From the NCBI GenBank assembly GCA_027002755.1, contig JALWZI010000064.1, forward strand, positions 1 to 25,404: a DNA stretch of 25,404 nucleotides, read 5' to 3'. Below the pieces are notes generated by a model. It did not search any database. It was not told the origin of the DNA and saw only the letters and a list, made by a program, of their open reading frames with translations. Of this stretch, positions 295 to 15,842 are shown piece after piece (positions within the stretch are counted from its first letter, which is position 1; every line of letters starts with the position of its first letter). The DNA is from Campylobacteraceae bacterium. GTDB lineage: Bacteria; Campylobacterota; Campylobacteria; Campylobacterales; Sulfurovaceae. Made by a program: the position numbers and the translations under genes.

Positions 295-433
295 TAATGG
301 AGTCCTCTGAAAAATGGCCGGTTTTACTCGATAGCTCTGGCAGTCGCGAACGCAAGCGCCCGTTTCACGGGTTGAGCGCTCCTTTATCGCCATCGAGTAA
401 AACCTCTCTTATCATGTCTTCAGAGGGTTCAAT
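295..433 (+). repeat. Structured hairpin repeat element, copy 1
   Basis: 139-bp imperfect inverted repeat homologous to 14109-14327. The outer stem is 300-311 with 419-430 (12 pairs, two of them G-U if RNA). The inner stem is 320-332 with 392-404 (13 perfect pairs). An apical hairpin has AGCG (355-358) pairing CGCT (377-380) and CCCG (359-362) pairing CGGG (368-371) round the loop TTTCA. The segments 335-351 and 356-385 are nearly identical in copy 2. Relative to copy 2 this copy lies on the plus strand, antisense to narK and the PP2C gene, so it is not a leader of those genes in the orientation seen at pyk. The CCTAAT at 293-298 aligns with the TATAAT of copy 2 but is a poor promoter. It could be a MITE-like element or a non-coding RNA family; not recognised. 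Confidence 0.8.
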
Positions 434-13390: not shown

Positions 13391-14079
13391 TGGGAGGCGG
13401 AGGCCTGCGCACGCCCCTGACCTGGGGACTGATCGGGCTCAGTCTCCTGGGGTATGTCGCCGAAGGGATCTGCGGCGGCAGCTGGGGAGAGATCGGCGGC
13501 CGTACTCTCGTCGAGTGCGGAGGGGTCTTCGGACCGGCGATCCTGGAGAGAGGAGAGTGGTGGCGTATCCTCACGGCTATGTTCCTCCACGGCGGCCCTG
13601 AGCATCTGGCACTGAACATGATCTCTCTCATGATCGTGGGGCGGATGATGGAGTACTATTTCCGCGCTTTGGACTATCTGCTGATCTATTTTCTTTCGGG
13701 GATCGGCGGATTCCTCCTCTCCCTCTCCCTGCACCCGGAGACCGTGATCATCGGTGCCAGCGGCGCGATCTTCGGGATCTTCGGGGCACTGGGGGGCTTC
13801 GCGCTCTTTCACCGGGAGCGGCTGGGGAGTCGTTATCATACGTTTCTCAAAGAGTTCGGGGCCATTCTGGGGGTGAACCTTCTTTTCGGTCTGGCGGTCC
13901 CGGGGATCGATATGAGCGCCCATATCGGGGGATTAATCCTGGGCGGAGTCGGCGGATACCTGGCCAGCGGGCATCGGGGGCTCTTTTATCTCTTCGTCGC
14001 AGGGAGTACGATCGGGATCTTTCTCGCGGCCCTTTGGCTACAGCAGCGTTACGCACTCTCCGCGATGCCGCTGTTTTGA
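13390..14079 (+). CDS. Rhomboid family intramembrane serine protease
   Basis: 229 residues with about six membrane helices. The catalytic dyad is visible: Ser124 in GASGAIFG and His178 in SAHIGGLILG. The conserved L1-loop region WWRILTAMFLHGG and the HLALNM segment (His72 and Asn76) are present. Rhomboids cut transmembrane substrates within the membrane; the substrate is not indicated. ATG overlaps the stop of the preceding gene by one base. Confidence 0.92.
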   Translation: MGGGGLRTPLTWGLIGLSLLGYVAEGICGGSWGEIGGRTLVECGGVFGPAILERGEWWRILTAMFLHGGPEHLALNMISLMIVGRMMEYYFRALDYLLIYFLSGIGGFLLSLSLHPETVIIGASGAIFGIFGALGGFALFHRERLGSRYHTFLKEFGAILGVNLLFGLAVPGIDMSAHIGGLILGGVGGYLASGHRGLFYLFVAGSTIGIFLAALWLQQRYALSAMPLF

Positions 14080-14106
14080 GTCCGAACGGTTTCCGCGATG
14101 AGCGGG

Positions 14107-14112
14107 TATAAT
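14107..14112 (+). promoter_or_regulatory. TATAAT box at the head of hairpin element copy 2
   Basis: A perfect -10 box 28 nt after the rhomboid stop. Expected transcription start is about 14118-14120, inside the left arm of the outer stem (14114-14123), so the RNA would begin with the element. It may drive either a stand-alone RNA or a pyk message with a leader of about 250 nt. No -35 box is evident. Confidence 0.6.
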
Positions 14113-14327
14113 TGAGTTCTCTGCAAAATTACCGGTTTCACTTGATAACTCTGGCAGTCGCGAACATGAGAAGCGTCAGCGAAGGACAACTGCTTGTCCT
14201 TCGCAGCTTCGGAACCGTAGCGGTCGGAGAGAAACGAAGCCGCGAAGGAGCGCCCGTTTCACGGGTTGAGCGCTCCTTTGTCGCCATCAAGTGAAACCTC
14301 TCCCAGACGTTTTTCAGAGAATTCAAT
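14109..14327 (+). repeat. Structured hairpin repeat element, copy 2 (pyk leader)
   Basis: 219-bp homologue of 295-433 with an 80-bp longer interior. The ends 14111-14123 and 14315-14327 are inverted repeats matching at 12 of 13 positions. The inner stem 14134-14146 with 14286-14298 is 13 perfect pairs. Relative to copy 1 two inner pairs and one outer pair are changed on both arms so that pairing is kept. The core hairpin is GGAGCG (14247-14252) with CGCTCC (14271-14276) plus CCCG/CGGG. The two copies share conserved single-stranded segments such as CTCTGGCAGTCGCGAAC. It fills most of the 290-bp gap between the rhomboid gene and pyk and could act as a 5' leader, a small RNA or a mobile hairpin. 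Confidence 0.8.
14179..14247 (+). ncRNA. Mutually exclusive hairpins within copy 2
   Basis: GCGAAGGACAA (14179-14189) pairs perfectly with 14194-14204 round a CTGC loop. The overlapping segment 14199-14211 can instead pair with 14235-14247 at 12 of 13 positions, enclosing a small hairpin ACCG/CGGT (14214-14217 with 14221-14224). Since 14199-14204 cannot be in both stems, two folds compete. This stretch is absent from copy 1. Confidence 0.55.
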
Positions 14328-14369
14328 CGATAGTCATTTCCCGATGTAAACGAAAAGAGAGGAGCAGAG

Positions 14370-15842
14370 ATGAAGAAACATTGCAAGATCCTGGCGACGG
14401 TGGGACCGGCCTGCCAGACGGCGGAGCGGTTGACGGAGATGATCCGGGCGGGGGTCAACCTCTTCCGGCTCAATTTCAGCCACGGAGACCACGCCTACCA
14501 CCTTCAGAGCCTGGAGGCGATCCGGGAAGCCTCCCGGCGTACCGGTCTGCATGTGGGGGTCCTGCAGGATATCAGCGGACCGAAAGTCCGTATCGGCAAG
14601 CTGGAGAAGGATCTCTTCCTGGAGGTGGGAGACCGGATCGAGTTCGTCCGGGAGGAGGTGGTGGGGCATTTCGACCGGCCCCATCACCTGGTGGTGAGCC
14701 TCAACCACCCGGAGCTTCTGGACAAGCTCAAAGTGGGTGAGCTGATCTACCTCTACGACGGGATCATCTGTGCCCGGGTGGTGCGGGTCGGCCGGAGTGT
14801 GGAAGCGGAGGTGATCAGCGGCGGGATGCTCTCCTCCCGCAAAGGGGTCAACTTCCCCAATACCCGGCTGGACCTGGATGTCCTGACCGACAAGGACAGA
14901 GAGGACATCGCCTGGGGGGTGGAGCACGGTGTCGATTTCATGGCGATCTCCTTCGTCCAGAAGGCGTCGGACATGGTTCGGGCCCGGGAGCTGGTGGCCT
15001 CCCTTGGCGGAAAGCAGGATCTCATTGCCAAGATCGAGAAGTTCGATGCGGTGGAGAACATCGATGCGATCCTGGAGGTGAGTGACGGGCTGATGGTGGC
15101 ACGGGGGGACCTGGGGATCGAGATCCCCTACTACCGGGTCCCGGAGGTGCAGAAGATGCTGATCCGCAAAGCCAACGAAGCCTCCAAGCCGGTGATCACC
15201 GCCACCCAGATGCTGCTGAGCATGACCCATGCGGAGCGGGCGACCCGGGCGGAGATCAGCGATGTGGCCAACGCGGTTCTGGACGGCTCCGACTGCCTGA
15301 TGCTCTCGGAGGAGAGTGCCATCGGGGAGTACCCGGTCCAGGCGGTGGAGACCATGAGCGCCACGATCCGGGAGGCGGAGGCGGTCTATCCCTATTTCCG
15401 GATCCATCAGTTCCCCTACAACGACGAGATGGATGTCATCGACGAATCGGCGGTGAACCTGGTGGAGAACATCGAGGCGGCGGCGATCCTGGCCATCACC
15501 AGCTCAGGACAGTCGGCGCGGAAGCTCTCCCGCTACCGTCCGAAGCAGCCGATCTACGCCGTGACCCATGCGGAGGAGATCGCCCGCAAGCTGACGATGG
15601 TCTGGGGGGTCGTTCCGGCCTTCCGTTCGGCGGCGGAGAGTGCGAGGCAGATGATGATCGACATCATCCGGCGGGGATTGGAGCAGGGGGTCCTGAAGCC
15701 GGAGCACAACTACGTGGTCACGGCGGGGGATCCTCCGGGGGTGCCCGGCACCACCAACATCATCCGGATCCTGCGCCGTCATGAACTGGAGCACTTCGCC
15801 AAAATGGCCCGGGAGAACCGCATCCCGAAAGATTGGGAGTAA
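14370..15842 (+). CDS. pyk: Pyruvate kinase
   Basis: 490 residues. It transfers phosphate from phosphoenolpyruvate to ADP. Seen in order: the N-terminal barrel start ILATVGPAC, RLNFSHGDH, DISGPKVRIG, the beta-barrel B domain (about 75-170), AKIEKFDAVENIDAI with the catalytic Lys, MVARGDLGIEIP, ATQMLLSM and the C-terminal allosteric domain (about 350-475). The active-site loop reads ATQMLLSM where ATQMLESM is usual. GAGGAG lies a few bases before ATG 14370. It is preceded by hairpin element copy 2 and faces ppx, only 5 bp away. Confidence 0.95.
   Translation: MKKHCKILATVGPACQTAERLTEMIRAGVNLFRLNFSHGDHAYHLQSLEAIREASRRTGLHVGVLQDISGPKVRIGKLEKDLFLEVGDRIEFVREEVVGHFDRPHHLVVSLNHPELLDKLKVGELIYLYDGIICARVVRVGRSVEAEVISGGMLSSRKGVNFPNTRLDLDVLTDKDREDIAWGVEHGVDFMAISFVQKASDMVRARELVASLGGKQDLIAKIEKFDAVENIDAILEVSDGLMVARGDLGIEIPYYRVPEVQKMLIRKANEASKPVITATQMLLSMTHAERATRAEISDVANAVLDGSDCLMLSEESAIGEYPVQAVETMSATIREAEAVYPYFRIHQFPYNDEMDVIDESAVNLVENIEAAAILAITSSGQSARKLSRYRPKQPIYAVTHAEEIARKLTMVWGVVPAFRSAAESARQMMIDIIRRGLEQGVLKPEHNYVVTAGDPPGVPGTTNIIRILRRHELEHFAKMARENRIPKDWE

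Follow-up and report, generated by a model that had tools for sequence, protein, structure and literature searches.

Is the folded repeat that stands upstream of pyk in this DNA a transcribed leader of that gene, or is it there for another reason? The window, that is the whole stretch of 25,404 nucleotides analysed here (contig C64 of genome G000), contains two copies of the repeat, and both fold with the shared outer and inner stems that a first, sequence-only reading had described. Outer ends, core and the 13-bp inner stem (P1) are common to the two, the core being conserved; an 84-nt internal module of copy 2, which the sequence-only reading had not set apart, is replaced by a few bases in copy 1. 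At 132 and 212 bp, both copies fall within the 70-300 bp given for MITEs in excerpts of PMC3733652, and like these they are taken to be without coding capacity; by eye, an open frame happens to occur in copy 1. The parts are as follows, with a strand where one was assigned; R1 denotes a covariance model built from 21 short copies.

299..430: copy 1, short form, 132 bp (predicted limits; R1 match at 317-407)
14113..14324: copy 2, long form, 212 bp (predicted limits)
296..298: target duplication AAT, left of copy 1
431..433: target duplication AAT, right of copy 1
14110..14112: target duplication AAT, left of copy 2 (the last three bases of TATAAT)
14325..14327: target duplication AAT, right of copy 2
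299..314: left terminal inverted repeat, copy 1 (inner limit approximate)
415..430: right terminal inverted repeat, copy 1 (inner limit approximate)
14113..14128: left terminal inverted repeat, copy 2 (inner limit approximate)
14309..14324: right terminal inverted repeat, copy 2 (inner limit approximate)
320..332: P1 5' arm, copy 1, GGTTTTACTCGAT
392..404: P1 3' arm, copy 1, ATCGAGTAAAACC
14134..14146: P1 5' arm, copy 2, GGTTTCACTTGAT
14286..14298: P1 3' arm, copy 2, ATCAAGTGAAACC
349..379: conserved apex hairpin, copy 1, AACGCAAGCGCCC..GGGTTGAGCGC
14253..14265: P3 hairpin, copy 2, CCCGTTTCACGGG
14166..14249: 84-nt internal module, long copies only, with its own covarying stems (+ strand, tentatively, from G.U pairs)
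14107..14112: TATAAT, host sequence overlapping the target duplication (+ strand)

Both two-sided changes that had been reported in the inner stem, from GGTTTTACTCGAT/ATCGAGTAAAACC to GGTTTCACTTGAT/ATCAAGTGAAACC, are real, and in the outer stem C304-G426 has indeed become T14118-A14320. A seed alignment of 21 copies was made with MAFFT without structure, the structure being written afterwards from that alignment; 97.6% of its cells are paired and 11 of 22 pairs are doubly changed, which none of 500 shuffles reached. In a set of 103 aligned copies, which includes two partial matches of long forms and, being fitted to the R1 model, leans towards it, 97.2% of pair cells are paired and double changes occur at 20 of 22 pairs, again beyond all 500 shuffles. 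This set holds 369 doubly changed cells against a shuffle mean of 86, in shuffles that ignore the relatedness of copies, and structures slid along it give 29-44% pairing. Arms varying without compensation, which the sequence-only reading had named as evidence against its own view, are not what these copies show, and its proposal of selection on structure is supported.

Most copies have GGTTTCACTCGAT, or a sequence close to it, as P1 arm; the arm is GTTCTTTGGGTCAAG in G010, TTTTTTGCCCGAT in G036 and CCAAAAGTGAG in G016, and pairing in P1 is complete apart from single mismatches. G030 likewise has arms of differing sequence. Covariation extends to the inner helices P2 (3 bp) and P3 (4 bp), and the unpaired stretches beside P2 keep their sequence from copy to copy. 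Changes on the two sides of pairs were counted by parsimony on FastTree trees of 99 copies from which the tested columns had been removed, a change being a departure from the commonest pair. Such changes numbered 9 and 9 for P2 pair 33-69, 16 and 16 for P3 pair 54-60, and, among P1 pairs, for example 7/7 (5-96), 11/8 (9-92), 18/17 (12-89) and 2/1 (16-85). Independent path pairs were few (two for 33-69 and five for 54-60), and all were concordant. The interior of the element is a folded unit, with conserved ends and apex and with arms that are free in sequence and held to pairing. The fold is selected or self-maintained.

Self-maintenance could come about if, in a DNA hairpin, template switching copied one arm onto the other, so that covariation appeared without selection on structure. 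This process is described, in the abstract of PMC8794818, as making multibase compensatory changes and keeping stems perfect. One copy, at 824-914 of L207 (G017), differs from the other seven G017 copies fetched in the distal half of P1, on both arms, and this replacement as a block on both sides looks like template switching. Against it stand the covariation of the 3-bp P2 and the 4-bp P3 and the lack, among 101 copies, of any with the reverse complement of TTTCA, the usual P3 loop sequence; nor does arm copying explain why unpaired bases of core and apex are conserved across genera and families. Where the covariation of the long arms is concerned, template switching is the chief competing explanation; it is a poor account of P2, P3 and the conserved unpaired bases, and as an explanation of the whole we consider it rather unlikely.

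The two window copies are part of a larger population. With copy 2 as query, 36 BLAST matches were obtained in G000 (1.57 Mb, 75.55% complete), and a chance resemblance of the two copies is therefore excluded; the matches sort into 23 places with eight long, 13 short and two partial copies. In a set of relatives, 21 of 60 genomes had a match. R1, run with up to 24 scored candidates in each genome, has matches in 50 of the family's 175 genomes, spread over seven of 11 genera, so that the further copies called for by the earlier proposal exist; among 398 genomes drawn from the order it matches 17, three of them in other families. Copy number in the R1 search ranges from 0 to more than 20 among members of the genus, with no match in G002, G003, G007 and G012. 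G011 has 12 R1 matches, and copies are also numerous in G001, G110 and G150. Viral contigs, plasmids and phages gave no match to the element. No published description of it was found in a literature search that covered titles and the openings of abstracts, and subscription journals thinly.

Several sites are occupied in one genome and empty in another. Upstream of pyk the element is absent from all eight other genomes of the genus with a nucleotide match to pyk (six read directly; G001 and G011 deduced from the lengths of BLAST gaps), and L059 and L064 are likewise without it. Between G110 and G150, one site is filled in L162 and empty in L150, with no clean duplication at the junction, and one intergenic region carries separate insertions about 75-80 bp apart in L156 and L153. 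G000 and G001 share one common insertion, whose two versions differ mainly by the presence of the 84-nt module.

The ends of the element are terminal inverted repeats of two types, type A being about 16 bp long and imperfect and type B (GGGCACCTCTAAAAA) nearly perfect. Target duplications were sought around 112 copies (101 from set A3 plus 19 more, minus eight orthologous loci), of which those with at most three mismatches at both ends were scored, 44 of type A and 13 of type B, and the others left unscored. With end boundaries chosen after the flanks had been viewed, 3-bp duplications flank 30 of the 44 type A copies (shuffled mean 15.3, maximum 23) and 4-bp duplications five of the 13 type B copies (shuffled mean 0.72, maximum 4), counts reached in 0 of 2000 shuffles in either case. 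The type A duplications are mostly ATN. There was no excess at 1, 2, 4 or 5 bp for type A or at 1, 2, 3 or 5 bp for type B, and 14 type A and eight type B copies have no duplication. The TATAAT box at 14107-14112, from which the sequence-only reading had derived the 5' end of an RNA, is present as described; since it ends in the target duplication AAT, it belongs to the host sequence into which the element inserted. A fortuitous transcript may start near 14118.

Gene context was determined with a simple gene finder for 120 copies, orthologous ones included. Ninety-four lie between two called genes without overlap. When the strand opposite to the one drawn in the sequence-only reading is taken as sense, 38 of these are antisense to both neighbours and 22 sense to both, while 20 are between divergent and 14 between convergent genes. 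The 38 against 22 is a lean, not the fixed orientation that a leader or a terminator needs. Fourteen copies overlap a called gene, and most of the 13 listed touch one gene end. Two copies, at 824-914 of L207 (G017) and 826-916 of L218 (G141), are wholly inside called open frames of 352 and 173 aa.

Because the pyk site is empty elsewhere, duplications flank the copies and their orientation to genes is inconstant, the element is read as a non-autonomous inverted-repeat element and not as a pyk leader; the mobile hairpin, which the sequence-only reading had held out as its own alternative, is thereby supported. Very probably, the window copies are insertions of a non-autonomous, MITE-type transposable element with a folded interior. 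A transposase would act in trans on the terminal inverted repeats and would leave duplications of 3 bp, mostly ATN, at type A ends or of 4 bp at type B ends; as these differ in length, the two types may need different enzymes. Some protein might in addition recognise the folded single strand, as RNA or single-stranded DNA, through its unpaired conserved bases, and such recognition could promote the spread of the element or make it better tolerated. The position upstream of pyk would then be incidental.

Parts of the element also occur in other combinations. The 84-nt module, with a conserved loop (AACTGCTT) and covarying stems, has 16 of 25 predicted pairs doubly changed among 31 sequences and is also found outside the element (L045, L046, L047, L048, L058 and L140). 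Beyond the family, matches of the model shrink to the apex AACGCAAGCGCCC..GGGTTGAGCGC, or a sequence close to it, in the centre of long hairpins with unrelated arms. Such differently armed hairpins occur in G240, G353, G210 and G246; by eye, those of G353 and G246 have type A-like ends and those of G240 and G210 other ends. The exact apex pattern is present in five of 397 genomes drawn from the phylum, the matches listed all being in the same order, and a control pattern gave no match among the matches listed. Hairpins that share the apex and differ in their arms come from five families of one order.

The ends, too, are found around other contents. Type A ends enclose, by eye, a CGTC-REP-like pair in L268, L283, L289, L346 and L347 (G009), in L342 and L343 (G001) and in L348 (G005); L268, L283 and L289 are about 132-133 bp long, like the short form. 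Between type B ends there is either a 266-bp element or next to nothing.

The former, also dispersed, is a second element some 266 bp long that has GGGCACCTCTAATAA as its ends and variable paired arms; it was seen at 1250-1515 of L264 and in L295 and L259. It occurs in G034, G083, G036, G027, G030, G151, G124 and G080, with end pairs 251 bp apart, and a comparison of L163 with L144 revealed an insertion of it (about 265 nt) in G150, near a shared copy of the first element, that is absent from G110. In L303, L307, L309 and L313 two type B ends by themselves form minimal hairpins of about 32-55 bp, and L296, L298, L300, L301 and L306 have solitary type B ends without a nearby partner.

A broader reading is that the element represents an undescribed, order-wide class of mobile elements in which the folded single strand is the unit of selection, a protein recognises the folded ends and the apex, and arms and modules are exchangeable, in other words an RNA or single-stranded DNA parasite that gathers structured modules. 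We offer it tentatively and consider it rather unlikely.

Imperfect pairs were used to ask on which strand the fold might act. Among 99 distinct copies, the core, read on the strand of the sequence-only reading, has 43 A.C against 15 G.U pairs, and A.C is also found at two other positions adjoining P1, in 59 of 99 and 32 of 99 copies. Since A.C on this strand is a wobble pair on the other, it is the strand opposite to pyk to which the core leans. With each genome counted once, the figures become 31 against 15 (p 0.026), and with each genus counted once 24 against 15 (p 0.20); the imbalance does not differ significantly from that of transitions in columns without pairing (24 against 18; Fisher p 0.38). 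In 90 of 99 copies the opposite strand also has the better minimum free energy, although this does not count as independent evidence. Contrary to the core, the 84-nt module leans to the pyk strand, with 21 G.U against 6 A.C pairs in a count by hand and, in addition to these, one nearly fixed U.G pair (30 of 31).

These data bear on the possibility that the copies are dispersed genes for an independent noncoding RNA carried by a transposon. The covarying multi-helix fold with its conserved unpaired bases, and the second covarying module inside long copies, would suit such an RNA. The contrary leanings of core and module speak against it, as does the variation from no copy to more than 20 within one genus. 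Promoter scans, made for the two window copies, gave no two-hexamer match near copy 2 (14000-14420) and one weak match inside copy 1. No known RNA family had been recognised at first reading, and Rfam indeed has no match in the window at gathering score; at a relaxed threshold there was one chance-level match per copy, with scores far under gathering. An independent RNA is therefore judged unlikely.

A search for the enzyme that might move the element was made through PF01797, PF01609 and end patterns, and no insertion sequence with the same ends was found by these routes. DDE_Tnp_1 (PF01609) was rejected as the mover, as it has no match in the element-rich genomes G000, G001, G004 and G006. 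An IS1380-family element of G080 (L319, 972-2674) has GGGCACCTCCAA at both ends; it was dismissed as a parent because its own ends lie further in; it had inserted into a minimal type B hairpin, where it sits with TCCAA as 5-bp repeat. IS1380 copies 82-84% identical to it in G034 and G036 are without the GGGCACCTCCAA outer ends. Within the stretches fetched, neither the solitary type B ends (G034, G036 and G016) nor the solitary type A ends proved to be ends of insertion sequences.

Single-strand transposition of the REP or IS200/IS605 type by a tyrosine transposase has in its favour that hairpins are essential in those systems and that Y1 domains are present in 20 of 26 genomes examined. Linkage and co-occurrence are both lacking: PF01797 gave no Y1 match in the copy-rich genomes G000, G004, G005 and G006 (of which only G004 is 99% complete), there are matches in G002 and G007, both without the element, and 12 fetched Y1 loci contain no copy of it. 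The Y1/RAYT transposase was accordingly rejected as the mover, and, with target duplications pointing to another chemistry, this route is very improbable. Three of the Y1 loci were looked at (L107, L108 and L109), and their Y1 genes, of about 256-264 aa, lie between inverted AGGGGTCAGGTGA-like repeats.

A cis-acting transcribed leader of pyk, in favour of which one may cite the location of the element between TATAAT and the gene and the G.U pairs of the module, is already largely refuted by the eight empty pyk sites, the presence of this element at 22 further places of the genome and its unfixed orientation to genes, and is the least probable reading of all.

The interior of a MITE is commonly regarded as what is left of a parent transposon. 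In the folded, MITE-type element proposed here the interior core is strongly constrained and its pairing survives the replacement of arms, so that dependence of a small DNA transposon on a folded strand becomes testable. The locus also warns against taking strong covariation next to a promoter as proof of a riboswitch-like leader.

Among known systems, NEMIS/Correia, RUP, ERIC and CIR, bacterial MITEs whose transcripts fold, are described in excerpts of PMC2229807 and PMC3733652 as elements of about 100-200 bp with terminal inverted repeats, target duplications and stable long stem-loops, and the present element resembles them in all four respects. It differs from them in that its arms are replaced with pairing kept while ends and apex are conserved, in its two types of ends with 3- and 4-bp duplications, in an internal module that may be present or absent, and in that no related insertion sequence was found. 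REPINs/RAYT elements (PMC3116915) are likewise small, non-autonomous hairpin elements relying on an enzyme acting in trans; unlike them, this element is not linked to Y1 transposase genes. CGTC-tagged REPs, which according to excerpts of PMC3733652 are short dispersed palindromes reported in Sulfurovum sp. NBC37-1, share with it small size, dispersal and palindromic sequence, whereas it has target duplications, a longer multi-helix fold and, by eye, no noticeable GTAG or CGTC tag.
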